Assembly: GCA_035559435.1 (NCBI GenBank)
Contig: DATMBC010000020.1
Location: 1 to 40,046, forward strand
Direction of reading: 5' to 3'
Length of the DNA: 40,046 nucleotides
DNA from: a bacterium
Lineage (GTDB): Bacteria; Zixibacteria; MSB-5A5; WJJR01
The notes beneath the pieces were generated by a model, which was not told the origin of the DNA, ran no database searches, and saw only the letters and a program-made list of their open reading frames with translations. How positions within the stretch are numbered: position 1 is the first letter of the stretch; each line of letters opens with the position of its first letter. Position numbers and translations under genes: made by a program. This document shows positions 22,956-38,532 of this stretch, piece after piece.

Positions 22956-25811
22956 CTACTCGTCGCCGGTCTCGTCGAACTCGCTGACCGAGACATGCTG
23001 AGAAAACTCGTCGTCGGTCAACGCCAGCAGGCATTCGTGCAGTTGTTCAATCGCAAACGGCTTGACCAGGACCGCATCGACCGGCTCGGCCATCTCGCGC
23101 GCCCCCGCGTCGGCCATCATGATGACCGGCATCTCGGCGCGGTGCGACTTGATCCACTGCACCAGCGCGAAGCCCTCCTCCTGCGGCAGCTCGGCGCTGA
23201 TCAGGACGGCGTCGTAGTGGCCGCCGATGTAGCGGGCGTATCCTTCCTGCGCCGCGGCCGCCACGGTCGCTTCATGCCCCAGACTGGCGAGCATGCCGGT
23301 GACCACATCCTGCATTTCCGGCTGATCCTCCACCACCAGGACGGACAGTGTGCCGGGAACGGGCTCGGCGACTTCCTCCTCATCGTCCGCCATCGGCTCG
23401 GGGGCGGCGACGGGGGCCGTCACCCCGAGCGTGATCTGCATGCCGACACGGTCATCGCCGTCATAGAGCCAGCGGGCGACGTTGCCTTCCACGGGAATCT
23501 CTTCGCCGTCGGCCTCGGCCTCTTCGAAGCCGGCGGAGAGGCGGGTCATCTGGACCACGGTCCCCGATTCGCGCGAGAGGGTCTTGATGGCAAATCCCAT
23601 CGACTCAGCGATGATCCGTCCCCGGCAGGTGCGGCGGGCCTCATCGAGGCGTTCGCCGAGCCAGAGGGTGTCGACCGTCGGGGTGTCATGCGCGGAGAGT
23701 TCGAGATGCCACTCGTCCTGATCCTGCTGCGCCACCCACTCGAGCAACGCGGTGTGCAGTTCGCGCTGGTGGGGCTTTGAGCCATTGTCCTGGACCGGGG
23801 CGGGGAGCGCAGCGGCTTCGGCCTGCGCGGCTTCCTCCTCGGGCGAGAACCCGGCGGGGGGCGCCATCAGCGCCTCTTCCAGCATCGCCACCTGATCCTG
23901 CAGGGAAGAGAGCCGTTCCTCGTACTCATCGCGGATGCGTTCGGCTTCGTTGTGGGCGCGCGCCAACGCCATCCCCTGTTCGAAGCGGGTGTTTTCCAGT
24001 TCGAGTTTCAGGTCCAGGAGCAGTTGTTCGCCGGCGTCATGGGTGGCCTCCCATTCTTCCCGGGCGCGGGCGTGGGCGTCGCGCTCGGCCTCCAGCAATT
24101 GCACATAGCGCGATTCGGTTTGACGCAATTCCTGCCGCAGGTTGTCGCGTTCAGCGTCAAAGTGCGCCTGCTGGTCGGCCAGCGTCAGCCGCATCGACTG
24201 GATTTCCTGCTTGAGCACGCGCTGCTCATCGACGGCGGCGCGGCGTTCCTCGTCGGCCCGCGCTCGCAATTCGCTCATCTGCCGGTTATGCTCCTGCTCG
24301 ATGGCGGCAATCTGCGTTTCCAGTTCGCCGATGCGCGCCTGGAGCGTTTCGGCCTCGCGCCGCCGCTCGACGGCCAGTGTCTGCCGCTCGCGCGCCATCT
24401 GCGCCTCGGCCGCTTCGAGCTTGCGGGCGTGTGTGCCGCGTTCTTCCTCGCGCGCGCGCTGTTCGGCCTCCAGCTCACGGGAGAGCGTGTGGACACTGGC
24501 TTCCAGCGCGCGAATCTGCGCGATCGCCTGATCGTGGCGGATCCGTTCGGCGGACAGCTGCTGCTGGTGTTCGTCGGCCATGCGCCGCTTTTCCTCGTCG
24601 GTGGCGCGGCGCAGTTCTTCCAGACGGGCGACTATGACATCGACCTCATGGCGCGCGGTCTGCCGGGCCTCCTGCGCGGCGGCGCGGGCGGCGTCGAGCT
24701 GCGCGCCCAGATCACGACGCAAAACGGCGACTTCCTGCGCGTGGGACGCGGCCGCGGCCGCGGCGGCGGATTCCAGACGCGCGATGTCTTCGGCGGCTTT
24801 GCGACGCGCTTCGTCGAGCTCCATCGTCAGACGCCCGGTGCGGGAGTTCAGCTCGGTCTCCCAGGCGCGGCGCTCGTCGGCCATTCGCCGGTCGGCGGCG
24901 CGCACCTGCTCGCGCACCGCGTCCAGTTCGCGTTCCTGCGCCGCCTTCTGCGCTTCGAGTTGCTGCGCGGCCGATTCCAGTTGACGTTGGAGCCGTCCCT
25001 CGGCAATCACCGCGGCGACATAGTCGGCGGCGGCATGCAGACGGCGCGCGCGGTCATCATCGAAACGCGATTCCGACGAGTCGGCGAGGATGATGATGCC
25101 CAGCAGGCGCTTTTCGGATGAACCGGGAGTCCCGGTGACCAGCGGCAACCCGAGCACCGACTGGATGCCTTCGGCTTCCCATTCGGGGAAAAACAGACGG
25201 ATCTCTTCGGCACGGGAGAAGACATGCGCTTTGTGCAAGCGCGCCAGACGGTCGAAGCCTGTGCCGGTGCCGCGCACGGTCTCGACCTGGCGGCGGAAGT
25301 TCTGGCTCATGTTCGCAGCGCCGGTCAGAATCCATTCACGGCCAGTCGGATTGTAGAGCCAGAGTCCGCCGGTGGTGACGCCAGCGGCACGGACCATTTC
25401 CTTCAAGGCGAACTCTAAGACTTCAAGGAAAGTGTATGGGCCGCTGACGACTTCGCGCAAGGTATCGTACAAATCGAAACCGGCGCGAATCTCCTCCAAC
25501 CGCCGGCGCTCCTCGGCCAGGTCGCGCAGACGCTCCATCGAACCGGACACCACCAGTCCGAGCCCGCCGGCAAGCAACACACCGGAAATGATCGGAAGCG
25601 CCACGCCCAACCCGGGATTGGCGGTGGCGGTCGCCAGCCATCCCCCGATGGCCCAGCCAATCGAACCGGCCAGCGCAATGCCGAGGCCAGTGTAGACCTT
25701 GCGCCAACCGAGGAAGCCCAGGGACCAGTGCCTTTCATGCGAGCGGAAAGCGTAGACGAGTAAAACAACGCAGGCGAGGGCCAGAAAAAGGCCCGGGAGA
25801 AAAGCGACCAT
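22956..25811 (-). CDS. Membrane GAF / long coiled-coil / pseudo-receiver protein
   Basis: A 951-residue protein. Three membrane segments lie at about 5-22, 38-60 and 66-88. A GAF sensor domain (about 115-270) is followed by a very long, Glu/Arg/Ala/Gln-rich coiled coil (about 270-650), then an unrecognised segment (about 680-800), then a receiver domain (about 822-935). The receiver keeps the acidic pair (Glu828-Asp829) and Lys917, but the phosphoacceptor Asp is Ser872 (AVLISAELP) and the Thr/Ser switch position is Ala900. No histidine-kinase DHp or ATPase domain is visible. It is therefore a likely scaffold or signalling adaptor that does not use Asp phosphorylation. Confidence 0.82.
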   Translation of the reverse strand: MVAFLPGLFLALACVVLLVYAFRSHERHWSLGFLGWRKVYTGLGIALAGSIGWAIGGWLATATANPGLGVALPIISGVLLAGGLGLVVSGSMERLRDLAEERRRLEEIRAGFDLYDTLREVVSGPYTFLEVLEFALKEMVRAAGVTTGGLWLYNPTGREWILTGAANMSQNFRRQVETVRGTGTGFDRLARLHKAHVFSRAEEIRLFFPEWEAEGIQSVLGLPLVTGTPGSSEKRLLGIIILADSSESRFDDDRARRLHAAADYVAAVIAEGRLQRQLESAAQQLEAQKAAQERELDAVREQVRAADRRMADERRAWETELNSRTGRLTMELDEARRKAAEDIARLESAAAAAAASHAQEVAVLRRDLGAQLDAARAAAQEARQTARHEVDVIVARLEELRRATDEEKRRMADEHQQQLSAERIRHDQAIAQIRALEASVHTLSRELEAEQRAREEERGTHARKLEAAEAQMARERQTLAVERRREAETLQARIGELETQIAAIEQEHNRQMSELRARADEERRAAVDEQRVLKQEIQSMRLTLADQQAHFDAERDNLRQELRQTESRYVQLLEAERDAHARAREEWEATHDAGEQLLLDLKLELENTRFEQGMALARAHNEAERIRDEYEERLSSLQDQVAMLEEALMAPPAGFSPEEEAAQAEAAALPAPVQDNGSKPHQRELHTALLEWVAQQDQDEWHLELSAHDTPTVDTLWLGERLDEARRTCRGRIIAESMGFAIKTLSRESGTVVQMTRLSAGFEEAEADGEEIPVEGNVARWLYDGDDRVGMQITLGVTAPVAAPEPMADDEEEVAEPVPGTLSVLVVEDQPEMQDVVTGMLASLGHEATVAAAAQEGYARYIGGHYDAVLISAELPQEEGFALVQWIKSHRAEMPVIMMADAGAREMAEPVDAVLVKPFAIEQLHECLLALTDDEFSQHVSVSEFDETGDE

Positions 25812-26838: not shown

Positions 26839-27543
26839 ATGACACTCACGGTACGGGATGTCGCCAGACTGCTAAGTGTATCCGAAAAAACGGTTTACCG
26901 GTGGATCAGCAAGGGCGAAGTTCCCGCCTACCAGGTCCACGAGCAGTATCGTTTCAACCGGGCGGAAATTCTCCAGTGGGCGACTTCGAGAAAGATGGCG
27001 GTCTCTCCCGAGATTTTTGCGGAGCCGGAATCGCATGGCATCGCACTGCCCTCGCTGGCGGAGGCGATTGAGAACGGCGGCGTCTACTATCGCGTGGTCG
27101 GCGTGGATCGCTGGGCCGTGCTGAAGAACATCGTCGGATTGCTGCGCCTGCCCGAGGAAGTTGATCGCGACTTCCTGCTTCGTGTCCTCATCGCGCGTGA
27201 GGAACTCTCATCCACCGGCATCGGGGACGGTATTGCCATCCCGCACGTGCGTAACCCGGTGGTTCTCCACGTTGACAAGCCGTTGGTGGCGCTGTTTTTC
27301 CTGGAGCGGCCGGTCGACTTCGGCGCGATTGACGGCCAGCCGGTGTACGCGCTGTTCATGCTGATCAGCCCCACTGTCCGGGCGCACCTCCACCTCATCT
27401 CGCGCCTGGCGTATGCGCTGCGCGATCCGGCCTTTCATGCGGTCATCGAAAAGCAGGGGCTGCGCGAAGAGATCCTCGACGCCGTGCTCGCCGTTGAAGC
27501 GCGACTCAACCCGCCCGGGCCGGCACCGTCGACGGTCGGTTGA
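26839..27543 (+). CDS. HTH/PTS EIIA fusion regulator
   Basis: A 234-residue protein. Residues 1-55 are an excisionase/MerR-like helix-turn-helix (VRDVARLLSVSEKTVYRWIS, QYRFNRAEILQWA). Residues about 75-225 form a PTS EIIA domain of the PtsN/fructose type, with the phospho-accepting histidine at His136 (GIAIPHVRNP), followed by DFGAIDGQPVYALFMLISP and HLHLISRLAYALRDP. EIIA domains receive phosphate from HPr-type carriers, so DNA binding could respond to the phosphotransfer state. It is the first gene after the promoter and ends one base before hyfB begins. That it regulates this operon is an inference from position. No HPr or EI gene is in the window. Confidence 0.87.
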   Translation: MTLTVRDVARLLSVSEKTVYRWISKGEVPAYQVHEQYRFNRAEILQWATSRKMAVSPEIFAEPESHGIALPSLAEAIENGGVYYRVVGVDRWAVLKNIVGLLRLPEEVDRDFLLRVLIAREELSSTGIGDGIAIPHVRNPVVLHVDKPLVALFFLERPVDFGAIDGQPVYALFMLISPTVRAHLHLISRLAYALRDPAFHAVIEKQGLREEILDAVLAVEARLNPPGPAPSTVG

Positions 27544-27544
27544 A

Positions 27545-29521
27545 ATGATGACAGCGCTGATCTCGAGTATAGGTTTGATCCTGCTGGCGGGGGTCCTCGC
27601 GTTGGCGCTGGGACGTTACAGCCGGGCGGCCGCGATCACCGCGGCCACCGGCATTGTCACCGGCGCGGCGCTGGGGCTCATTCCGGTTATCGCCACCCTG
27701 GTGAGTCTGCAATCGGATTCGGTCCGATGGTCATGGACCGTACCGGGCGGCAGTCTCTGGCTGGGGATCGATCCTCTCTCCGCGGTCTTTCTGCTGATCG
27801 TTTTCCTGTTGAGCATTCCCGTCTGTCTATACGGGGTGCCGTATCTCTCACACCATCACGACTACCCCAGGGGTTTTGTGTGGTTCGCGTCGTCGGTGTT
27901 GATCGCCGCGATGGCGGTGGTTGTGACGGCGCGCAACGCGGTGCTGTTCCTGGTGGCCTGGGAAGCGATGTCGGTGAGTTCGTACTTTCTTGTCTCGCTT
28001 GATCACACCCGGCGGTCGGTGCGTCGCGCCGGGATCACCTACCTCGTTGCGGCCCACATCGGCGTCGCCTTCCTGATCGCGTTCTTTCTTCTGCTGGGAC
28101 GTCCGGCGACATCTCTGGATTTCGAGGATCTCCGCAACGCTACCGGGGGGTCGGCGCTGCTTTTCATCCTTGCGCTCGTCGGGTTTGGCTCGAAGGCGGG
28201 GTTGGTGCCGTTTCATGTCTGGCTGCCCGAGGCGCATCCGGTGGCCCCCAGCCACATCTCCGCGCTGATGTCCGGCGTGATGATCAAGATGGGCATTTAC
28301 GGGCTGTTGCGAGCGATGCTGTTGCTCGGACCGCCGTCCTACTGGTGGGGGGTGACGCTGATCGCGGTGGGGATGATCTCCGCCATCGTCGGCATCCTGT
28401 CCGCCTTGTCGCAATCGAACATCAAGCGATTGCTGGCATACTCGAGCGTTGAGAATGTCGGGATCATCACGATCGGACTGGGGATTGGCGCGCTCGGCTG
28501 GGTGACGCGTTCGTATGGCATCGCGATCCTCGGATTGTCCGGCGCCATTCTGCATGTCGTCAATCACGCGATCTTCAAGGGCGCGCTGTTTCTCGCCGCC
28601 GGGTCCATCCTGCAACGCACCGGGACGCTCGAGCTTGATCGCCTGGGCGGGCTCCTCCGACGGATGCGACGCACCGGACTGGTGATCGTGATCGGCTCGG
28701 TGGCGATTGCCGGCCTGCCGCTCGGAAACGGATTTTTGAGCGAGTTTCTGATTTACCTCGGCGCGTTTCGCGGCGCACTGGTTGACCGCACGGATTTCGC
28801 GGCGCTGGCTTTCGCCGTGGTCATCGGTTTGGCGCTCGTCGGAGGATTGGCCATTATCGGATTCGCCAAACTGACCGGCATCGGCCTGCTGGGCCAACCG
28901 CGGACGCCGACGGCCGCGCAGGCGACGGAGTCCTCTCCCCTGATGACTTACCCCATGCTCGCCATGGGGATTCTCTGTCTCGTCATCGGATTAAACGCCC
29001 ACATGATTCCGGGCGTGCTGGTCCCGTTGAGCGGTTCCATTCTCAACATTCCCGCCGCGGAGGTCTCCGCGGCGCGGGCAGCGATTGCGCCGACGATGCG
29101 GACGCTCAGTCTGGGCATCGGGGCGCTGGCCGTCGTGACCATGATGGCGGCCCTGGCGCGATACGCCGTCCTCCGCGGCCGGACAATCCGCGTGGCGGGA
29201 ACCTGGGATTGCGGCTACGCCGCCCCCGGCCCGCGCATGCAGTACAGCGGATTCTCCTTCGTGCAGATGACCGTCGGGCTGTTTCGGCGTCTGGTGCCCC
29301 TGCAGCGGCGCTCAATGCCGCCGGCCGGATTGTTCCCGCGGCAGGGGTCGTTCGGGATTCGACTCCACGACGGTCTGCTTCACGCGTTTTACATCCCGTT
29401 GTTTGGCAGGGCGGACTGGGCGCTCGGGCGGCTGCGGTGGCTTCAGCACGGCAACATTCATTTGTACATTCTTTACATCCTGGTGACCACGATGGTCCTG
29501 TTGTTCTGGGGGCTGCGATGA
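27545..29521 (+). CDS. hyfB: Hyf-like antiporter subunit HyfB
   Basis: A 658-residue, about 14-16-helix membrane protein of the NuoL/Mrp family, the length expected for HyfB (E. coli about 670). The start is the ATG at 27545, one base after the upstream stop; a longer frame exists but overlaps the EIIA gene. Conserved proton-path signatures are visible: LVAWEAMSVSSYFLVSLDH with its glutamate, and FHVWLPEAHPVAPSHISALM followed by MSGVMIKMGIYG with its lysine. It would be a membrane ion-translocating arm of the complex. It overlaps hyfC by four bases. Confidence 0.93.
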   Translation: MMTALISSIGLILLAGVLALALGRYSRAAAITAATGIVTGAALGLIPVIATLVSLQSDSVRWSWTVPGGSLWLGIDPLSAVFLLIVFLLSIPVCLYGVPYLSHHHDYPRGFVWFASSVLIAAMAVVVTARNAVLFLVAWEAMSVSSYFLVSLDHTRRSVRRAGITYLVAAHIGVAFLIAFFLLLGRPATSLDFEDLRNATGGSALLFILALVGFGSKAGLVPFHVWLPEAHPVAPSHISALMSGVMIKMGIYGLLRAMLLLGPPSYWWGVTLIAVGMISAIVGILSALSQSNIKRLLAYSSVENVGIITIGLGIGALGWVTRSYGIAILGLSGAILHVVNHAIFKGALFLAAGSILQRTGTLELDRLGGLLRRMRRTGLVIVIGSVAIAGLPLGNGFLSEFLIYLGAFRGALVDRTDFAALAFAVVIGLALVGGLAIIGFAKLTGIGLLGQPRTPTAAQATESSPLMTYPMLAMGILCLVIGLNAHMIPGVLVPLSGSILNIPAAEVSAARAAIAPTMRTLSLGIGALAVVTMMAALARYAVLRGRTIRVAGTWDCGYAAPGPRMQYSGFSFVQMTVGLFRRLVPLQRRSMPPAGLFPRQGSFGIRLHDGLLHAFYIPLFGRADWALGRLRWLQHGNIHLYILYILVTTMVLLFWGLR

Positions 29522-30432
29522 GCGCAACCCTCCTGGCCATCGGCCACATTGTCCTGGCGCTGGTCGGCGCCCCATTGCTTCTGGGAATCATCAATCGCAC
29601 CAAAGCGGTCTTCGCCGGACGGCGCGGCCAGCCGGTCCTGCAGCCGTACTTTGACATTCTCAAACTCATGCGCAAAGGCGCCGTGTACAGCAGCACAACC
29701 ACCTGGATATTTCGCGCCGGGCCGGCCGTGACGCTGGCGGCCGTGTTGACCGGCCTCTGCATCGTCCCGTTCGCCGGCGCCAAGCCATTGTTGGCCTTTC
29801 AAGGCGATCTGATCCTGATCGCGTATCTGCTGGCGCTGTCGCGCCTGATGACGGTTCTGGCGGCGATCGACACGGGATCGAGCTTCGAGGGCATGGGGGC
29901 CAGCCGCGAGCTCACGTTTTCCATGCTCGCCGAACCGGCCCTCTTTGTCGGCCTGCTCGCGCTGGCGCGCGTCACGCACAGTCTCTCGCTCGATGGAATC
30001 CTTTACAAGACCGGAGTGACCGGTTGGAGCATCGGCGCGCCAGCGCTGGTCGCCGCCGCATTGTTCGTGGTGTTCCTCACGGAGAACGCGCGCCTGCCCA
30101 TCGACGATCCCGACACGCACCTTGAATTGACGATGATTCACGAAGTCATGGTCCTGGACCATGGGGGACCCGACCTCGGGCTGGTGCAGTGCGGCAGCGC
30201 GCTCAAACTCTGGCTGTTGGGCATTCTGATCGTGGGCGTGGCGTCGCCGAATCTTGCGGACGCAAGTCTCTGGCTGCGGGAAGGCTTCGCGGTGGCCGGT
30301 CTGGCGGCTCTGGCCGTCCTGGTGGGCATCGTGGAGTCGTTCATGGCGCGCATGCGGCTGATGAAGGTGCCGCAACTGCTGATCGGCGCCGGCGCGCTGT
30401 CGGTGCTCGCGGCGATTCTGGTCCTGGGGTGA
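29518..30432 (+). CDS. hyfC: Hyf-like membrane subunit HyfC (NuoH-like)
   Basis: A 304-residue membrane protein homologous to NuoH and HycD, the subunit that joins the catalytic arm to the membrane pump. The ATG at 29518 overlaps the hyfB stop. Signatures are QPYFDILKLMRKG, GSSFEGMGASREL and the acidic loop DDPDTHLELTMIHEVMVLDH, with eight or so hydrophobic helices. Length is normal for HyfC (about 315). Confidence 0.93.
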   Translation: MSATLLAIGHIVLALVGAPLLLGIINRTKAVFAGRRGQPVLQPYFDILKLMRKGAVYSSTTTWIFRAGPAVTLAAVLTGLCIVPFAGAKPLLAFQGDLILIAYLLALSRLMTVLAAIDTGSSFEGMGASRELTFSMLAEPALFVGLLALARVTHSLSLDGILYKTGVTGWSIGAPALVAAALFVVFLTENARLPIDDPDTHLELTMIHEVMVLDHGGPDLGLVQCGSALKLWLLGILIVGVASPNLADASLWLREGFAVAGLAALAVLVGIVESFMARMRLMKVPQLLIGAGALSVLAAILVLG

Positions 30433-30436
30433 GCGT

Positions 30437-31129
30437 ATGAATGACCTGATCAGCATCCTGGTGGTGGTCATCATCATGAGCGATTTCCTGCTGCTGGCGG
30501 CCGGATCGTTGCGTGCCGCCGTGCGCATCATCGGCTTTCAGGGGCTGGCGCTCGGGGTGTTGCCACTGTGCGCGCATCAGAACGGGTTGACGCTGCGTCT
30601 GGTGGCCATCGCGATCCTGGTGATCATTCTGAAAGCCGTGGTCTTCCCGCGTCTGCTCCTCCGGAGTCTGCGTGAGTCGGGCGCGCCCAGGACCATCACG
30701 TTCTTTGTCGGCCCGGTCTCCTCGCTCCTGCTGGGAATCTTTGTCCTGGGCAGTTCGCTTTGGTGGGGGTATCTCCTGCCGCTTCCCGAGCGGTCGCCGT
30801 ACACGCTGGCCGTTCCGATGGTCTTTTTCACGATCGTCACCGGACTCCTGCTGCTGGTGAGCCGAAGGCAGGCGCTGATGCAAGTCATCGGGTATCTGGC
30901 GCTGGAAAACGGGATCTACGCGTTCGGCGTCTTCTTCGCGCAATCCGAGTCGATGCTGATTGAGCTGGGGATCCTGCTGGATGTGTTTGTGGGCGTGTTC
31001 ATCATGGGGATCATGGTGTTCCATATCAGCCGCGAATTCGACAACATCGAATCGAGCCAGCTGAGCACGCTGCGCGACTGGTTTCGCGGCAGTCGCCGCC
31101 CGGCGGGTGGAGGCGGGACGTTGCGATGA
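30437..31129 (+). CDS. hyfE: Hyf-like membrane subunit HyfE (NuoK-like)
   Basis: A 230-residue, six- or seven-helix protein with HyfE motifs: GFQGLALGVLPL, KAVVFPRLLLRSL, GYLALENGIYAFG and LDVFVGVFIMGIMVFHISREFD. It is a membrane component of the ion path. It begins four bases after hyfC and overlaps hyfF by four. Confidence 0.9.
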   Translation: MNDLISILVVVIIMSDFLLLAAGSLRAAVRIIGFQGLALGVLPLCAHQNGLTLRLVAIAILVIILKAVVFPRLLLRSLRESGAPRTITFFVGPVSSLLLGIFVLGSSLWWGYLLPLPERSPYTLAVPMVFFTIVTGLLLLVSRRQALMQVIGYLALENGIYAFGVFFAQSESMLIELGILLDVFVGVFIMGIMVFHISREFDNIESSQLSTLRDWFRGSRRPAGGGGTLR

Positions 31130-32601
31130 TTCTGCTGGTGGTGATCGTGCCCGTTCTGGCCAGCCTGGCGGCGATGGCAGTGCGCCACACCCGTGCGCGC
31201 CGGGCGCTGTTGATTCTGGTGGCCACGGCGCACGCCGCGCTCACCGCCGGCGCCTGGGTCGTCCGCCCGGAGCCGGCGCTGGGCGGGTGGATGCAATTGG
31301 ACGCCCTGGGACTGATCTTCCTTTCCATTATCAGTGCGTTGTTCCTTGCGGCGGCGGTTTACGCCGCGGCCTACCTCGCTCGCGAGCAGGTCGGCACGCG
31401 TCAAGACTTCGAGGAGTCGTTCCTGTTTGTCAATGAGCCGGAGGCGGTGTTTGTCGGCTGCCTGCTTCTGTTTCTCGGCACGATGTCGCTGGTCACCGTG
31501 AGCCATAACTTTGGAATGCTGTGGGTGGCCATCGAGGCCACGACGCTCAGCAGCGCGCCGCTCATCTATTTTCACCGTCACCACCGCTCGCTGGAAGCGA
31601 CCTGGAAATACCTGTTGATCTGCTCGGTGGGCATTGCGCTCGCGCTGCTGGGGACGTTTTTCCTGGCTTCCGCCGCCAGCGCCTCCCCGGAGCGCGGCAT
31701 CCCGCTGGTGCTGGGCGAATTGCTGGCCCATTCCGGCGCGCTCGACCTCCCCTGGTTGAAAGTCGCGTTTCTGTTCATGCTGGTGGGGTACGGCACCAAG
31801 ATGGGATTGGCACCCCTGCACAGCTGGCTGCCCGATGCGCACAGCGAGGCGCCGTCGGTGGTGTCGGCCCTGCTCTCCGGCGCGCTGCTCAATTGCGCTT
31901 TCCTGGGGATCCTGCGTATCGGCCAGGTGCTGAATGCCGCCGGCGCCGCCGAGTTCGGCCAGGGACTGCTGCTGGTCTTTGGCGTGATCTCCGTCGTTTT
32001 CGCCACGGTGTTCATCGTTTCCCAGTTGGACTTCAAGCGCATGCTCGCCTATTCAAGCATCGAGCACATGGGCATCATGGCCATCGGCGTGGGCGTCGGC
32101 GGGCTGGGCACATTCGGCTCGCTGTTGCATGCGGTTAATCACTCCCTGACGAAGGCGATGCTGTTTCTGGTCGCCGGCAATATTCTGGCGCGTTATCGAA
32201 CGAAATCGACCAAACTTGTCAACGGGGTCCTCGCCGAGCTGCCGGGCTCGGGGGTCCTGTGGATGGCGGGCCTGCTGGCGATCACCGGCACGCCACCGTT
32301 TGGCCTGTTCCAGAGCGAATTGACAATCCTTCGTGCCGCGTTTGGGTCGGGTCGGTACGTCGTGGCGGTCCTGCTGCTGCTTGCCCTTGTTGCCATCTTC
32401 GTGGCGATGGCGGCGATTATGACACGGATGCTCTACGGCCAGGCGCGCGAAGGGTCGGCACCGTCTCCCGGCGAGGCGGCGGCCGCGGTCGTGCCGCCGG
32501 CCGTGCTGTGTATGGCCGTGCTGATACTGGGCCTCTACCTCCCCCCCGCGCTGAACGGACTGCTGAGGGAAGCGGCCAATCTGCTGGATGTGCGTCTATG
32601 A
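31126..32601 (+). CDS. hyfF: Hyf-like antiporter subunit HyfF (NuoN/L-like)
   Basis: A 491-residue polytopic protein of the antiporter family. LWVAIEATTLSSAPLIYFH, LHSWLPDAHSEAPSVVSALL and LLNCAFLGILR are the HyfF signatures, and LKAYSSIEHM-like text is present as RMLAYSSIEHMGIMAIG. It overlaps hyfG by four bases (ATGA). There is no additional HyfD-type gene, so the complex has two antiporter-like subunits rather than the three of E. coli Hyf. Confidence 0.92.
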   Translation: MILLVVIVPVLASLAAMAVRHTRARRALLILVATAHAALTAGAWVVRPEPALGGWMQLDALGLIFLSIISALFLAAAVYAAAYLAREQVGTRQDFEESFLFVNEPEAVFVGCLLLFLGTMSLVTVSHNFGMLWVAIEATTLSSAPLIYFHRHHRSLEATWKYLLICSVGIALALLGTFFLASAASASPERGIPLVLGELLAHSGALDLPWLKVAFLFMLVGYGTKMGLAPLHSWLPDAHSEAPSVVSALLSGALLNCAFLGILRIGQVLNAAGAAEFGQGLLLVFGVISVVFATVFIVSQLDFKRMLAYSSIEHMGIMAIGVGVGGLGTFGSLLHAVNHSLTKAMLFLVAGNILARYRTKSTKLVNGVLAELPGSGVLWMAGLLAITGTPPFGLFQSELTILRAAFGSGRYVVAVLLLLALVAIFVAMAAIMTRMLYGQAREGSAPSPGEAAAAVVPPAVLCMAVLILGLYLPPALNGLLREAANLLDVRL

Positions 32602-34070
32602 GCGCGTCGGATTTCCATGTCTGTCAACCCGGGACCGTTATCGATCGGCGCGACATCGCGCCCGTCGTATTCGACGTGTTCGCTGAGACGATCACCAGCG
32701 GGGTCCGCGATGGCGATCGGTTGCTGGCGCTTGTCGCGCAACCGTCGGGAACCGGCCACCGGCTCTATGGCGTGCTGACGCTGCGCGATCAGGGCGCGTT
32801 GGGAGTCATCGCGACGGACGTGGCCGACTCGTTTCCTTCGCTGACTCGACAGTGTGCGTCGGCGCACCTGTTTGAACGCGAGATCGCCGAGACCTCGGGG
32901 CTTCGACCCGACGGACATCCATGGCTCAAACCCGTTCGTTTCCTGCGTTCGCCGGTCGGCGTCACAGAGTTCTTTGCGATGTCCGGGGCCGATGTGCATG
33001 AGGTCGCGGTCGGACCGGTGCACGCGGGCGTGATCGAGCCGGGTCACTTTCGCTTTGCCTGCGTGGGTGAGACGGTGCTCCATCTGGAGATTGCCCTGGG
33101 TTACCAGCATCGGGGCATCGAGCCGGCGCTGGTCGGCGGCCCGGGGCTCCGGACGATCCACTACATGGAGACGCTGGCCGGCGACACATCGGTGGGCCAT
33201 GCCACGGCCTATTGCCAGAATCTCGAAACCCTGGCGCACCGCCCGGCGCCGCCGCGCGGCATGATGCTGCGCAGCGTTGCGCTCGAACTGGAGCGCCTGG
33301 CCAATCATGTGGGTGATCTGGGCGCGCTCGCCGGTGATGTCGGCTTTCTCCCGGTGGCATCGCATTGCGGACGAATTCGCGGCGAATTCCTGAACCTGAC
33401 GTCGCTGATTTGCGGCAACCGCCTCGGGCGCGGCATCGCGCGGCCTGGCGGCGTCGGCTTCGATCTGGATGACGGCCAGATTGAAACACTCTTGCGCAAC
33501 CTGAAGCGCGCCTCCGAGGAGGCGAGGGACGCGCTTCAACTGCTCTGGGATTCGCCGTCGGCGATGGACCGCTTCGAAACCACCGGCTCACTGACCGCGC
33601 CGCTTTGTCGCGAACTGGGAATCGTCGGACCGCCGGCGCGCGCGGCGGGGCTGGAACGGGACGCGCGTCTGGAATTCCCCTCCGACCTGTTCCGCTTCGC
33701 GCAGATTCCCGTGTCGCTTTGGCAGTCCGGCGACGTGTTCGCGCGTGCCTACGTGCGCTGGTTGGAGATTATTCGTTCCAGTGAGTTCATAGCCGCCCAG
33801 CTGGCGGCGGCTCCGCCGGGCCCCTGCCGGGCGCCGGTCGGTCAACTGGCGCCCAATGCGTTGACGGTTTCCCTCGTCGAAGGCTGGCGCGGCGAAATCT
33901 GTCACGTGGCGTGCACGGACGACGATGGACGATTTGCCTGGTACAAGGTCGTTGATCCGTCGTTCCACAATTGGCAGGGCCTGGCCATGGCCATGCGCAA
34001 CCAGCCGATATCGGATTTCCCGCTCTGTAACAAGAGTTTCAACCTGTCGTATTGCGGCCATGACCTGTAG
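32598..34070 (+). CDS. hyfG: Ehr/HyfG-like large subunit without nickel ligands
   Basis: A 490-residue NuoC-NuoD fusion, like E. coli HyfG. The N-terminal 120 residues are the 30-kDa (NuoC) domain; residues about 125-490 the large subunit. In [NiFe] hydrogenases two CxxC pairs hold nickel. Here the first site is ETLAGDTSVGH, with Ala194 and Thr197 in place of the two Cys, and the last is VDPSFHNW, with Ser455 and Asn458. All four ligands are absent, so no [NiFe] centre can form. LELERLANHVGDLG and the tail CNKSFNLSYCGHDL are family-typical. This identifies the Ehr (energy-converting hydrogenase-related) group. What the site binds is unknown. Confidence 0.92.
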   Translation: MSASDFHVCQPGTVIDRRDIAPVVFDVFAETITSGVRDGDRLLALVAQPSGTGHRLYGVLTLRDQGALGVIATDVADSFPSLTRQCASAHLFEREIAETSGLRPDGHPWLKPVRFLRSPVGVTEFFAMSGADVHEVAVGPVHAGVIEPGHFRFACVGETVLHLEIALGYQHRGIEPALVGGPGLRTIHYMETLAGDTSVGHATAYCQNLETLAHRPAPPRGMMLRSVALELERLANHVGDLGALAGDVGFLPVASHCGRIRGEFLNLTSLICGNRLGRGIARPGGVGFDLDDGQIETLLRNLKRASEEARDALQLLWDSPSAMDRFETTGSLTAPLCRELGIVGPPARAAGLERDARLEFPSDLFRFAQIPVSLWQSGDVFARAYVRWLEIIRSSEFIAAQLAAAPPGPCRAPVGQLAPNALTVSLVEGWRGEICHVACTDDDGRFAWYKVVDPSFHNWQGLAMAMRNQPISDFPLCNKSFNLSYCGHDL

Positions 34071-34133
34071 CAGCGACCGCCGGCCACTTCCATTCCGATG
34101 CCCTCCGGCGTGCGGTCCCGGGGACACCTGCCC

Positions 34134-34913
34134 ATGCTGAAGACTCTGCTCACTCGTATGAGATTCGGAAATCGCACGATCGCGTTTCCCGCGGAAGCGC
34201 CGTCCTTGCCCGATCGTTATCTCGGGCGCCCGGTCATCGGTCCGCAGCCGTGCGCGGCCGGCTGCCGCGAGTGTGTCGACGTCTGCCCGACGACGGCGAT
34301 CTCCGTTGCGGACCTTCATCCGGCGCTGGATCTGGGGCGGTGCATCTTCTGCGCGGACTGCCTCCGCGCCTGTCCGGAGGGCACGATTCGGTTCTCCCGC
34401 GACCCGGCGATGTCAGCGTCGGCGCGCGGCGATCTGGTCGTCGGGCATAAAGCCGAAGCGGCCATGGTCAGACGCCTCAATCACGAGATGCTGCGATTGT
34501 TCAAACGATCGTTGCGGCTGCGGCAGGTCAGCGCCGGCGGGTGCAACGGCTGCGAAGTTGAGGTGAACGTTCTCGCCACCATCGTCTATGACATTGGCCG
34601 ATTCGGCATTCAATATGTGGCGTCGCCAAGGCACGCCGATGGTCTGCTGATCACCGGCCCGGTGACGGAGAACATGAAGCTGGCGTTGCAGAAAACGTAC
34701 GATGCGGTTCCCGACCCCAAAATCGTGATTGCCGTCGGGGCTTGCGCCATCGCCGGCGGCCCCTTTATCGACCATCCGCAGGTCCATAACGGCGCGGCCG
34801 GCGTCGTTCCGGTCGATCTCTACATTCCTGGTTGTCCGCCGCATCCGATTACGATCCTTGACGGCTTGCTGCGGCTGCTGGGAAGGATGCCGGCACGGAC
34901 ACCGGGTGTCTGA
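34134..34913 (+). CDS. Fused HyfH ferredoxin + HyfI small subunit
   Basis: A 259-residue fusion. Residues 35-85 hold two [4Fe-4S] motifs: Cys40/44/47/51 (the first spacing is CxxxC rather than CxxC) and Cys70/73/76/80. Residues about 125-255 are the NuoB/HyfI small subunit, with cluster ligands Cys137 and Cys140 (GGCNGCEVE), GACAIAGG and PGCPPHP all intact. In E. coli these are two genes, hyfH and hyfI. The ATG at 34134 has GGGGA about 10 bases upstream; an in-frame ATG at 34098 is less likely. Electrons would pass through the ferredoxin domain to the site in the large subunit. It ends the operon. Confidence 0.9.
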   Translation: MLKTLLTRMRFGNRTIAFPAEAPSLPDRYLGRPVIGPQPCAAGCRECVDVCPTTAISVADLHPALDLGRCIFCADCLRACPEGTIRFSRDPAMSASARGDLVVGHKAEAAMVRRLNHEMLRLFKRSLRLRQVSAGGCNGCEVEVNVLATIVYDIGRFGIQYVASPRHADGLLITGPVTENMKLALQKTYDAVPDPKIVIAVGACAIAGGPFIDHPQVHNGAAGVVPVDLYIPGCPPHPITILDGLLRLLGRMPARTPGV

Positions 34914-35075: not shown

Positions 35076-37247
35076 TTAATACGCCAGCAGATCGCGGACG
35101 GCCTTCTCGATGTCGTCGTTCTGCGGCAGGATGGCGTCCTCGACCTCGGGGCCATATGACACCGGGCAGTCGAGCGCGCCGACGCGGCGCACCGGGGCAT
35201 CGAGATGCTCAAAGCAGTTCTCGGTGATCCAGGCGGCGATCTCGGCGCCGAAGCCGACGAACTTTACGTCTTCATGCACCACCAGCACGCGGTTGGTCTT
35301 CTTTACCGAGGCGGCGACAATCTCCTGATCCCACGGCACGATGGTGCGCAGGTCGATGACCTCGAGGCTGATTCCTTCGGCCTCGAGTTTTTGCGCGGTC
35401 TGCTGGGACTTCAGCACGGTGGCGCCATAGGTGACGATGGTCATGTCGGCGCCTTCGCGCACGATGCGTCCGCGTCCGAAGGGAATTGTAAACTCCGGGC
35501 CGGGGTACTTCGACTTGAGAATCGGCTGACGGTAGAGGCGCTTGTGCTCCAGGTAGAGCACCGGGTCCTCGCAGCGCAACGCGGTGCGCAAGAGGCCGAC
35601 GGCATCGAGCGCATTCGACGGGAAGGCGATGAGCAGCCCGGGGAAATGCGCGAAGGTGCCTTCGATGGATTGCGAATGATAGGGCGCGCCGGAGCCGCCG
35701 AGATAGCCGCCGACGGCGACGCGGATGACCGCCGGGGCCGACCAGGTGTTGTTGGAGCGCCAGCGGATCTTGGCCAGCTCGTTGACGATCTGCATCGTGG
35801 CCGGCCAGATGTAGTCGCCGAACTGAATCTCGGCGACCGGCTTGAGGCCATGCGCCGCCATGCCGACGGAGGTGCCGACGATGGTCGCTTCGGCCAGCTG
35901 CGAATTGTAGACGCGCAGCGAGCCATACGCCTTCTGCAGTCCGATGGTCGCCTTGAACACGCCCCCCTTGCCGGGGACCTTCTGCATCAGCTCTTCCAGA
36001 CCGACATCGGCGACATCCTCGCCGAAGACGACGATGCGCGGGTCGCGCTTCATCTCATCGTGGAGGGTCTTGTTGACGCCCTGAATCAGCGTCACTTCGG
36101 CCTCCTCGAATTGCGGCTCGCTCAGGAAGCGGTCGGAGCGGACATCAACGTCGGGCGAAGTGACATACAGGAGCGCCGTATCCTTCGCCGGACGGCGCGC
36201 GGTCAGCGCCGCCTCGGCGGCGGCGTTGATCTCGGCATCCACCTCATCGCGCAGTTTCTGCAGCTGCTCCTCGGTGGCCACGCCCTCGCGGACGAGATAG
36301 GCGGGGAACTTCTTGAGCGGATCGCGCGCGGCCTCGGCCTCGCGCATCTCGGGCGTCTTGTACAACTTGTCGTCGTCGGATTCGGAGTGCGAATACGGAC
36401 GCACCACATGCGCGTGAACCAGGCAGGGCTTGTGCTCGACGCGCAGCCGGTGCTCCAGCCCCTTGAAGACGTTGTAGCACTCGACCGGATCGGTGCCGTC
36501 GACTTCGACAATCTCCAGCAGCCCGCGCTCGACAAACCCATTCAGCAGCTTGGAGGCCGAGCCGCCGGCGGTCTGCTGCACCTTCGGCACTGAGATGGCG
36601 TAGCCGTTGTCCTCGATCAGGAACAGGACACCCAGCTGGCCATACTTGGTTTCCAGACAGGCGGCGTTGAGGGCCTCCCAGAACTCGCCCTGCGAAGTGG
36701 TGCCATCGCCGGTGGAGGTGTAGACAAATTCATCGGGGTGAAACTTCGCGACGGCCTTGGCCGCGTCGGGGTTGTTGCGCAGATAACGAGAGGCCTGCGC
36801 ACAGCCGACCGCCTCGAGAAACTGCGTGCCGGTGCAGGAGGAACGGCTGACGAAATTCGCCTTGGGGATTGACCAGTGCGAGGGCATCGATCGTCCGCCG
36901 CTTGTGCCATCGGCGGCGCCCACTGAGTCGAGAAGCATCTCGGCCGGGGTCAACCCCAGCGCCAGCGCCAGCGCGCGGTCGCGATAGTAGCCCCAGAACC
37001 AGTCGACGCCGGGACGCGCCACGAGCCCGAGCGCCGCCAGCACCGCCTCATGGCCGGCGCCCGAAATCTGGAAGTAGACACGCGACTGCGTCTTCAGTTT
37101 GCGCTCCATGTCGTCGACACGGCGCGATGTATAGATCCAGCGGTACAACTGCAGCAGTTGTTCGACCGATAGCGTATCGGTCCCCGAGGCGGACTTTCCG
37201 CCGGGGGCGCGTTTCGGCTTGGACATTGGTGCGGTGACTTCGCTCAT
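35076..37247 (-). CDS. Fused 2-oxoacid dehydrogenase E1 alpha-beta
   Basis: A 723-residue fusion of the two E1 subunits. Residues about 30-360 are the alpha part, with the thiamine-diphosphate motif (GDGTTSQGEFWEALNAA, then EDNGYAISVP). Residues about 380-723 are the beta part (VFGEDVADVG, GLKPVAEIQFGDYIW, SQSIEGTFAHFPGL). E1 decarboxylates a 2-oxoacid (branched-chain keto acid or pyruvate) and passes the acyl group to E2. It most resembles branched-chain or 2-oxoisovalerate type E1; the substrate is not certain. E2 and E3 are not in the window. It is a single gene with its own terminator. Confidence 0.94.
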   Translation of the reverse strand: MSEVTAPMSKPKRAPGGKSASGTDTLSVEQLLQLYRWIYTSRRVDDMERKLKTQSRVYFQISGAGHEAVLAALGLVARPGVDWFWGYYRDRALALALGLTPAEMLLDSVGAADGTSGGRSMPSHWSIPKANFVSRSSCTGTQFLEAVGCAQASRYLRNNPDAAKAVAKFHPDEFVYTSTGDGTTSQGEFWEALNAACLETKYGQLGVLFLIEDNGYAISVPKVQQTAGGSASKLLNGFVERGLLEIVEVDGTDPVECYNVFKGLEHRLRVEHKPCLVHAHVVRPYSHSESDDDKLYKTPEMREAEAARDPLKKFPAYLVREGVATEEQLQKLRDEVDAEINAAAEAALTARRPAKDTALLYVTSPDVDVRSDRFLSEPQFEEAEVTLIQGVNKTLHDEMKRDPRIVVFGEDVADVGLEELMQKVPGKGGVFKATIGLQKAYGSLRVYNSQLAEATIVGTSVGMAAHGLKPVAEIQFGDYIWPATMQIVNELAKIRWRSNNTWSAPAVIRVAVGGYLGGSGAPYHSQSIEGTFAHFPGLLIAFPSNALDAVGLLRTALRCEDPVLYLEHKRLYRQPILKSKYPGPEFTIPFGRGRIVREGADMTIVTYGATVLKSQQTAQKLEAEGISLEVIDLRTIVPWDQEIVAASVKKTNRVLVVHEDVKFVGFGAEIAAWITENCFEHLDAPVRRVGALDCPVSYGPEVEDAILPQNDDIEKAVRDLLAY

Positions 37248-37530: not shown

Positions 37531-38532
37531 TCAAAAGTGAAACTCGAGGATGTCGCCATCCTCTACATGATGATCGGCCGGAACGCGTGTGCCATCCAGC
37601 GCCGGTTTCACGCGGCTCCAGATGCGCGCGAATTGCAGCCGTTCGGCGATGTCCTTGTGAATCGCGCGCGCGGCATCGGCCACCATCGCCTGATGCGGCA
37701 ACAGGATCGGATCCTCAAGATCGGGCTTCTGCCCGGGCGCCTTGGTGTAGACACGCATCAATTCCAGGAGCGCAAACGCGCGCGCCAGAAAATCATCCAG
37801 CCCGGCGCGGGTCGGGATCGCGATCGGGACAATTGCCGCGCGGTTGCCAATGGTATCGCGCAACAGATCGAGCCGTGTCGCGGCATCGGGCAGATCCATG
37901 CCGGTGGCGGCAATCAGGGTCTTCTTCTCCAGCGCGGTCGGAAAGCGCGGATCGGGCGCGACCAGCCCGGCCAGGCGCACCTTGCCCTCATGCACACGGT
38001 GGATCACATATTCGTAACGCTCCAGCAGGTCATCGTCGCCCAGCGACAGCACCAGCACGCCGGCATCGGCGGTGCGGATCAGATTGAAGACATAGCTCTC
38101 GCAGTATTCCGGCGCGATCGAAGGCGTGTCGATCAACTGCAATTTCACATTCTCCCAACGGGCCATGCCCGGCGACGGCTTGCGCGTGGCAAAGGGCCAC
38201 TCGGTGATCTCAACATGGGCGTTGGTCAACGCGCCAATGATACTCGACTTGCCGCCATTGGGCGGTCCAAAGAGGACAAACTGCCCGGCTCCTTCGCGCG
38301 GGATATGATCCGGGGCGGCATGTTTGGCGCCGCTGGGTTTCTTCGCGCCTTCAAGCTGGGCCTTCAGCTTTGAAATCTTTGCTTTCAGCTCTCCTTGCAG
38401 GTGATTGGTGCCCTTGTGCTTGGGGATCTCCCGCAACATCTCCTGCAGGAGTTCCAGGCGCCGTCCGAGGTCTTTTTCCTGACGGTACTCCTCCTCGAGT
38501 TTCTGGTACTGGGGCGGAAGATTCGCCGGCAT
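37531..38532 (-). CDS. TGS-domain GTPase (DRG/Obg-related) with altered G4
   Basis: A 333-residue protein. Residues about 5-62 form a charged helical/coiled region, followed by G1 (GPPNGGKSS, near 88-96), G3 (DTPS) and a C-terminal TGS domain (about 255-333, ending DGDILEFHF). It resembles archaeal/eukaryotic DRG GTPases more than bacterial ObgE. The guanine-specificity motif G4, normally NKxD, appears as ATGMDLPD, with Asn and Lys replaced, so nucleotide preference may be changed. The start is ATG at 38532, close to a TATAAT box. The role is unknown; DRG proteins associate with ribosomes in other organisms. Confidence 0.87.
   Translation of the reverse strand: MPANLPPQYQKLEEEYRQEKDLGRRLELLQEMLREIPKHKGTNHLQGELKAKISKLKAQLEGAKKPSGAKHAAPDHIPREGAGQFVLFGPPNGGKSSIIGALTNAHVEITEWPFATRKPSPGMARWENVKLQLIDTPSIAPEYCESYVFNLIRTADAGVLVLSLGDDDLLERYEYVIHRVHEGKVRLAGLVAPDPRFPTALEKKTLIAATGMDLPDAATRLDLLRDTIGNRAAIVPIAIPTRAGLDDFLARAFALLELMRVYTKAPGQKPDLEDPILLPHQAMVADAARAIHKDIAERLQFARIWSRVKPALDGTRVPADHHVEDGDILEFHF

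Follow-up and report, generated by a model that had tools for sequence, protein, structure and literature searches.

Complexes of the Ehr type have been described in Geobacter (PMC7894505), in Margulisbacteria and Saganbacteria (PMC6349859) and in comammox Nitrospira, where the loss of the CxxC motifs was stated (PMC10284858), and Hyq has been described in rhizobia (PMC3357923). The name endo-hydrogenase was given to Hyq from deletion phenotypes (PMC2650096). In the literature we searched, no established reaction was found for any Ehr or Hyq member. Here we analyse an operon of this kind on a 40,046-nucleotide contig of a Zixibacteria genome (GTDB lineage MSB-5A5; WJJR01; assembly GCA_035559435.1, contig DATMBC010000020.1, positions 1 to 40,046, hereafter the window), starting from its large subunit, G, encoded at 32598..34070. 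The complex belongs to the already known Ehr/Hyq family; a first-pass annotation made from the DNA letters had placed it in the Ehr group and regarded the reaction of that group as not established, and on both points we agree. We propose that the Ehr complex is a ferredoxin-linked ion pump that passes electrons to a small acceptor, probably not a quinone, in the former NiFe pocket, a reading that we hold with about as much belief as doubt.

Results

The gene for G lies on the forward strand, as do all operon features given below, and encodes 490 residues and a stop codon, in the frame, length and position first assigned to it; there is a 4-bp overlap between its start and the stop of the gene before it. 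Pfam places Complex1_49kDa and Complex1_30kDa domains in the product, and alignments, a tree and a structural model agree on a NuoC-NuoD/HycE-like large subunit of the EhrL/HyqG type that lacks nickel ligands. The top PDB match (phmmer) is Escherichia coli HycE (E = 3e-38), and HycE (7z0s_E) is also the closest structural match (template modelling score 0.88) to an AlphaFold2 model of G built from 28 family members (predicted local distance difference test 87.5, predicted template modelling score 0.90).

Group 4 [NiFe] hydrogenases have four nickel-ligating cysteines, and all four are gone from G. The former first motif, A194-G195-D196-T197 (33177..33188), stands at the CGIC of HycE, HyfG and MbhL, as the first-pass annotation had it. 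The second site, in contrast, had been misplaced. It was read in DPSFHN (453-458), with Ser455 and Asn458 as replacements, but alignments with HycE, HyfG and MbhL rule this out, since DPSFHN faces AATYAN of HycE and HyfG. It forms part of the loop DPSFHNW (453-459; 33954..33974), which corresponds to the Glu343-Pro-Thr345 loop of MbhL, a second-coordination-sphere element without metal ligands in the published residue list (PMC11228991). The DPCYSC motif of HycE (Cys374/Cys377 of MbhL) aligns instead with N482-L-S484-Y-C486-G487, so that the true former second motif, S484-Y-C-G487, lies in the tail N478-L490 (34029..34067). This tail had rightly been called conserved, but that it holds the real second nickel motif had been overlooked. 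Alignment with HycE and HyfG, a check that the annotation itself had proposed, thus corrected the second site and upheld the loss of all four cysteines, the replacements being Ala194, Thr197, Ser484 and Gly487.

The capacity to build the cofactor is missing too. Neither HypC nor HypD was found in the window's genome, which is rated 100% complete, while the E. coli control was positive in both searches; the [NiFe] cofactor therefore cannot be made there. With the four ligands gone as well, no [NiFe] centre is possible, as had been argued at the outset. The C-terminus of G, L490, coincides with that of a mature hydrogenase: it aligns with R537 of HycE, the residue at which the maturation protease cuts, and hence no such protease is needed.

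How the vacated site has been rebuilt was followed in 88 distinct large subunits (the window's included) from independent assemblies and about 14 phyla, a count taken from record titles, many of them of metagenome-assembled genomes. Around the former metal site, G195, R431, D453, P454, S455 and W459 are present in 88/88 and D196 in 87/88; in the tail, N478, K479, S480, S484, Y485, G487, D489 and L490 are each found in 88/88. For comparison we used 19 hydrogenases and 14 complex I sequences, none of which has the Ehr residue at positions 196, 453, 478, 479, 484, 487 or 490, whereas Tyr at position 485 also occurs in five of the hydrogenases. By homology to MbhL, the former NiFe pocket would be lined by D196, D453, S455, K479, S484 and Y485. 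Two residues of the hydrogenase proton route are kept in most relatives, namely E147 (33036..33038; 77/88), the equivalent of the proton donor Glu21 of MbhL, and H201 (83/88), the equivalent of its His75. Conservation across 88 independently assembled sequences rules out decay and chance and excludes a sequencing error, which had been named as one way in which the loss of ligands might prove false; the view that this is purposeful replacement stands. C486 is one residue off the ligand position, is Cys in 61/88 and A, S or P in the other 27, and is therefore not a conserved ligand. A new metal site formed by C477 and C486 was considered and rejected, C486 being variable and the Rhizobium leguminosarum homologue having its Cys three residues earlier instead.

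In a tree of 70 large subunits rooted on complex I, the 37 Ehr rows, those from the genus Geobacter among them, form one clade (100/100) with a long stem, apart from functional hydrogenases and from complex I. This clade is sister to HycE/HyfG (91/91) and lies within the [NiFe] group. The simplest reading of this topology is a single loss of the metal, ancestral to the family, from a group 4 hydrogenase of the HycE/HyfG kind. Relatives carried on plasmids of Rhizobium, Variovorax, Rhodococcus and Meiothermus sit inside the clade. Within the class, a clear Ehr match was obtained in only 7 of 133 genomes (the threshold being a gap in E-values that we read ourselves), and both other members of the genus are without Ehr; this patchiness suggests horizontal transfer or frequent loss.

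The small subunit, I (34098..34913), is a two-cluster ferredoxin fused to a NuoB/HyfI domain, of 271 residues as listed, although comparison with relatives makes a start at 34134 likelier. Its ferredoxin domain has all eight cysteines (C52, C56, C59, C63 and C82, C85, C88, C92; 34251..34373), for which two [4Fe-4S] clusters are expected; the CxxxC spacing at the beginning is unusual and common to near relatives. Among 80 relatives, 27 keep all eight, 16 lack the domain and 37 show partial loss. In 36 of these 37, a number that does not represent independent events, many of the sequences being related (Elusimicrobia, Geobacter), cysteines are missing only from C1, C2, C3 and C8, while C4-C7 are complete; intermediates exist, and one-cluster examples are found in the small subunits at loci L015, L017, L018, L020 and others. 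We take C1/C2/C3/C8 and C4-C7 to be the ligand sets of two different clusters in two-cluster ferredoxins and in NuoI, the retained one presumably corresponding to N6b, which in complex I structures is nearer the proximal cluster. Loss of one cluster and protection of the other is as expected if a working electron path were fed by a soluble donor. Four loci of the window's genome match the 2-oxoacid:ferredoxin oxidoreductase family, one of them being scored as a 2-oxoacid:acceptor oxidoreductase alpha subunit.

The proximal [4Fe-4S] ligands of I (C149, C152, C216, C246; 34542..34835) have the CxxC spacing of hydrogenases, as in all relatives, and not the adjacent cysteines of the NuoB motif of complex I. 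It is here that the complex can be set against MBS. Several Ehr carriers belong to sulfur-reducing groups, which speaks for a sulfane sulfur reductase whose proximal cluster would catalyse the transfer of electrons from ferredoxin to polysulfide. MBS is a relative in which the NiFe centre has been lost and the proximal cluster serves in its stead, but its cluster is bound by three cysteines and its pocket is hydrophobic and without the Glu (PMC7684303). Ehr has four cluster cysteines, keeps E147 and has polar residues among its replacements, and we allow an MBS-like activity only a slight chance.

The operon consists of seven tightly packed genes, regulator-B-C-E-F-G-I, with several 4-bp overlaps; the small subunit, a NuoH-like anchor and antiporter-like subunits are encoded together, as in Ehr operons. 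B (27545..29521; start chosen by comparison with relatives) is a HyfB/NuoL-like antiporter-type subunit of 658 residues, and F (31126..32601) is a second one of the HyfF/NuoM-N type. Pfam also identifies C (29518..30432), a HyfC/NuoH-like membrane anchor of 304 residues, and E (30437..31129), a HyfE-like membrane subunit with a NuoK-type domain. Conserved charged residues in B (E140, K217, H224, K248, H337, H341, K345, E400) and in F (E137, K161, K225, H232, K343) are mostly common to HyfB and HyfF and are what an ion-pumping arm would be expected to show, while C has invariant residues specific to Ehr (E134, D207, H211, H218, D258). Three further genomes of the class have the complete seven-gene unit, and a fourth has part of it.

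What is conserved among Ehr loci, in a search of the neighbours for donor or acceptor genes, is the six subunits and the regulator; this unit includes no dedicated donor gene, which speaks for the ferredoxin-linked reading. Another proposal is that a formate dehydrogenase feeds Ehr, which would make it a formate hydrogenlyase without the hydrogenase. Every detected Ehr subunit is up on formate in the proteome of Geobacter sulfurreducens (PMC7894505), a formate dehydrogenase-Ehr system has been proposed for Margulisbacteria (PMC6349859), and in G014, the genome of the nearest relative, the genes next after the Ehr operon are FdhD, MobB and MobA (L156:10877-12771), with a selenocysteine-type formate dehydrogenase-N nearby. 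However, the window's genome yielded no FdhD, its Ehr operon contains neither a HycB/HyfA-type linker nor a formate dehydrogenase, and FdhD occurs in 12/42 Ehr genomes against 6/38 Ehr-free genomes of the class, a difference too weak to make it a general partner. We consider a formate-linked complex improbable. An 852-residue molybdoenzyme on contig C34 of the same genome was rejected as a formate dehydrogenase, since it scores better as a NasC-type nitrate reductase. As a separate observation, the formate dehydrogenase-N alpha gene of G014 (L168:823-4643) falls into two parts at the selenocysteine position, which reads as a stop.

For the ferredoxin-linked pump we propose the following route. 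Electrons would come from a soluble donor of low potential, most likely reduced ferredoxin, enter subunit I at its ferredoxin domain and pass through the hydrogenase-type proximal [4Fe-4S] cluster to a small molecule in the former NiFe pocket. Protons would enter by the retained hydrogenase route (E147, H201), and the reaction would power ion translocation by B and F, coupled through C and E; the complex could also run in reverse. The subunit set, the lost ligands, the single clade, the kept cluster and proton-route residues and the missing NiFe maturation can be read in the sequence itself, and beyond these it is by inference that we name ferredoxin as the donor, give the electrons a direction, ascribe pumping to the complex and characterise its acceptor.

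Several points weigh against this proposal. The donor is deduced from a domain that 16/80 relatives lack, E147 is Gly in 9 relatives, and membership of the pocket comes from homology with MbhL. The window's genome has MenD and UbiA-family genes and uses the MenD route to menaquinone, placing a quinone within reach. Deletion of hyqRBCEFGI increased H2 loss at least tenfold at 20 uM O2 and lowered H2 output below 1 uM O2, effects that point to hydrogen exchange (PMC3357923, PMC2650096). Finally, our reading of the literature turned up no biochemical assay of an Ehr complex.

The Hyq phenotypes are the core of the case for a nickel-free hydrogenase, in which the pocket handles H2 or protons by undescribed means, as claimed for the Azorhizobium endo-hydrogenase. 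The effect on H2 is also seen, by comparison, in a nitrogenase-minus background (PMC3357923, PMC2650096), and the homologue from R. leguminosarum, a species that the Hyq authors name among the hyq carriers, has the same motifs as the window protein at 38% identity. Yet whole-operon deletions may act indirectly, and every hydrogenase known so far works with a NiFe, FeFe or Fe-guanylylpyridinol site. By the Hyq authors' own later account, HyqG has neither CxxC motif and no cell-free assay was available to them (PMC3357923). We see a very slight chance of such an enzyme.

A quinone-linked complex is a more serious contender, either as a ferredoxin:menaquinone oxidoreductase like complex I without its NADH module or as the gradient-driven reverse from quinol to ferredoxin. 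Fold, C subunit and proximal cluster are arranged as in complex I, the position of Glu21 in MBH is that of the quinone-linked His38 in complex I (PMC11228991), and a quinone site was inferred by the Hyq authors (PMC3357923). Against this, the quinone residues Tyr87 and His38 of Nqo4 have no counterpart in G, which has G195 in place of Tyr87 and a hydrogenase-type loop with E147. Of 54 Ehr genomes, 23 score above the cut-off for MqnA/D and a further 4, including that of the window, for MenD, leaving 27 with neither menaquinone marker, mostly metagenome-assembled genomes of unknown completeness; pocket residues are alike in carriers with and without the markers. For Synergistota L-13 a complete chromosome has been published (CP074691). 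It carries the whole Ehr operon, yet no UbiA, MqnA or MenD was found in it, the only one of the 54 without a UbiA-family protein, and its Ehr falls within the window's own 11-row subclade (90/87). We know of no prenylquinone route that does without the UbiA family, and L-13 therefore has no known one. Invariance of the pocket residues across bacteria that have quinones and bacteria that do not makes quinone an improbable acceptor in general, and we regard a quinone-linked complex as unlikely. The choice between ferredoxin and quinone, which the first-pass annotation had left open, is thus narrowed in part: the input side looks ferredoxin-type, and quinone is unlikely as the general acceptor.

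For the ferredoxin-linked pump as a whole, the evidence argues against hydrogen, formate or quinone being a necessary partner. That all Ehr and Hyq complexes carry out one undescribed ferredoxin-driven, proton-coupled reduction in the vacated pocket, with an acceptor that is neither quinone nor proton, coupled to an ion pump and working with and without quinones, is possible but doubtful.

The first gene of the operon (26839..27543) encodes a regulator in which Pfam recognises an HTH_17 DNA-binding domain fused to a phosphotransferase system (PTS) EIIA, PtsN-like, domain, with the phospho-acceptor His kept in AIPHVR. The same fusion occurs in 22 other Ehr loci of distant bacteria, usually abutting an antiporter-type gene, and 19 of the 22 have the His motif; at locus L022 the phospho-acceptor position is Gln. 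No description of this pairing with Ehr was found in the literature searched. It hints that PTS-type signalling may set expression of the operon. A sigma-54/NifA-type promoter as in hyq was rejected, pattern matches being below chance level with none upstream of the operon, and comparison of upstream regions of relatives revealed nothing clear in common. At the Geobacter-type loci L012, L020, L023, L033, L045 and L047 a second antiporter-type gene abuts the regulator, often divergent from the main operon.

Other neighbours differ from group to group. Only in Elusimicrobia does a glycerol-3-phosphate-dehydrogenase-like cluster adjoin Ehr; at many of these loci (e.g. L041:886-3801) the cluster directly upstream comprises flavin adenine dinucleotide (FAD) oxidoreductases and a DUF1667-like protein, names that we assigned by eye. 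In the window, three genes on the reverse strand flank the operon. The one upstream (22956-25811) encodes 951 residues, with a GAF domain and, at the C-terminus, a receiver domain. Just downstream lies a fused 2-oxoacid dehydrogenase E1 alpha and beta (35076-37247, 723 residues), followed by a 333-residue GTPase with MMR_HSR1 and TGS domains (37531-38532) that resembles the DRG family of archaea and eukaryotes. Elsewhere in the genome, contig C24 (L150, L151) carries two different nuoD genes about 9 kb apart and two nuoB-like genes, which suggest either two cores of complex I or an unusual complex I that has been duplicated.

Discussion

Ehr and Hyq stand between hydrogenases and complex I and are spread over about 14 phyla. 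The search for the acceptor is narrowed by several constraints, namely no nickel, no obligatory quinone or formate dehydrogenase, a hydrogenase-type proximal cluster and invariant pocket residues, and the work names a quinone-free organism and specific residues for testing. It also bears on the claim that Hyq is a hydrogenase. Our additions are the quinone-free carrier, the one-sided loss of the ferredoxin cluster, the regulator pairing, a carrier genome in which Hyp proteins and FdhD are absent and the assignment of Hyq-type proteins to Ehr; earlier publication is possible, subscription papers lying outside the literature covered.

Among known systems, those of Geobacter (GSU0739-0745; EhrA, C, L, S), comammox Nitrospira, Margulisbacteria and Saganbacteria are alike, with six hydrogenase-4-type subunits and a large subunit without CxxC. 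Large subunits of the family from the genus Geobacter are 52-56% identical to the window's, a comparison that did not include GSU0739-0745; their loci differ by an extra antiporter-type gene beside the regulator and by having mostly one cluster in the ferredoxin domain. Judged by gene order, Mycobacterium tuberculosis Rv0082-Rv0087, annotated as formate hydrogenlyase, is presumably another member; Rhodococcus plasmid loci have the same order.

The hyqRBCEFGI operon of Azorhizobium caulinodans, compared by its description only, matches the window in its gene order R-B-C-E-F-G-I, regulator first, and in the absence of both CxxC motifs (PMC3357923, PMC2650096). The Hyq-type homologue from R. leguminosarum, at 38% identity, falls inside the Ehr clade. 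Unlike the window's complex, Hyq is NifA-controlled and claimed to handle H2, and Hyq-type loci have a small XRE-type regulator in place of HTH_17-EIIA and a small subunit without the ferredoxin domain. E. coli hydrogenases 4 and 3 (HyfG, HycE) are by tree and fold the nearest functional hydrogenases and have the same subunit types, whereas they differ from G in their CGIC and DPCYSC motifs, a cleaved C-terminal extension, HyfA/HycB-type linkers and a requirement for Hyp proteins. MBH and MBS of Pyrococcus furiosus, both ferredoxin-driven, belong like the window's complex to the complex I superfamily. MBH has the Glu21 and His75 that G keeps, together with the NiFe centre that G lacks; MBS has lost that centre as G has, but differs in its three-Cys proximal cluster and in having no Glu21 (PMC7684303).

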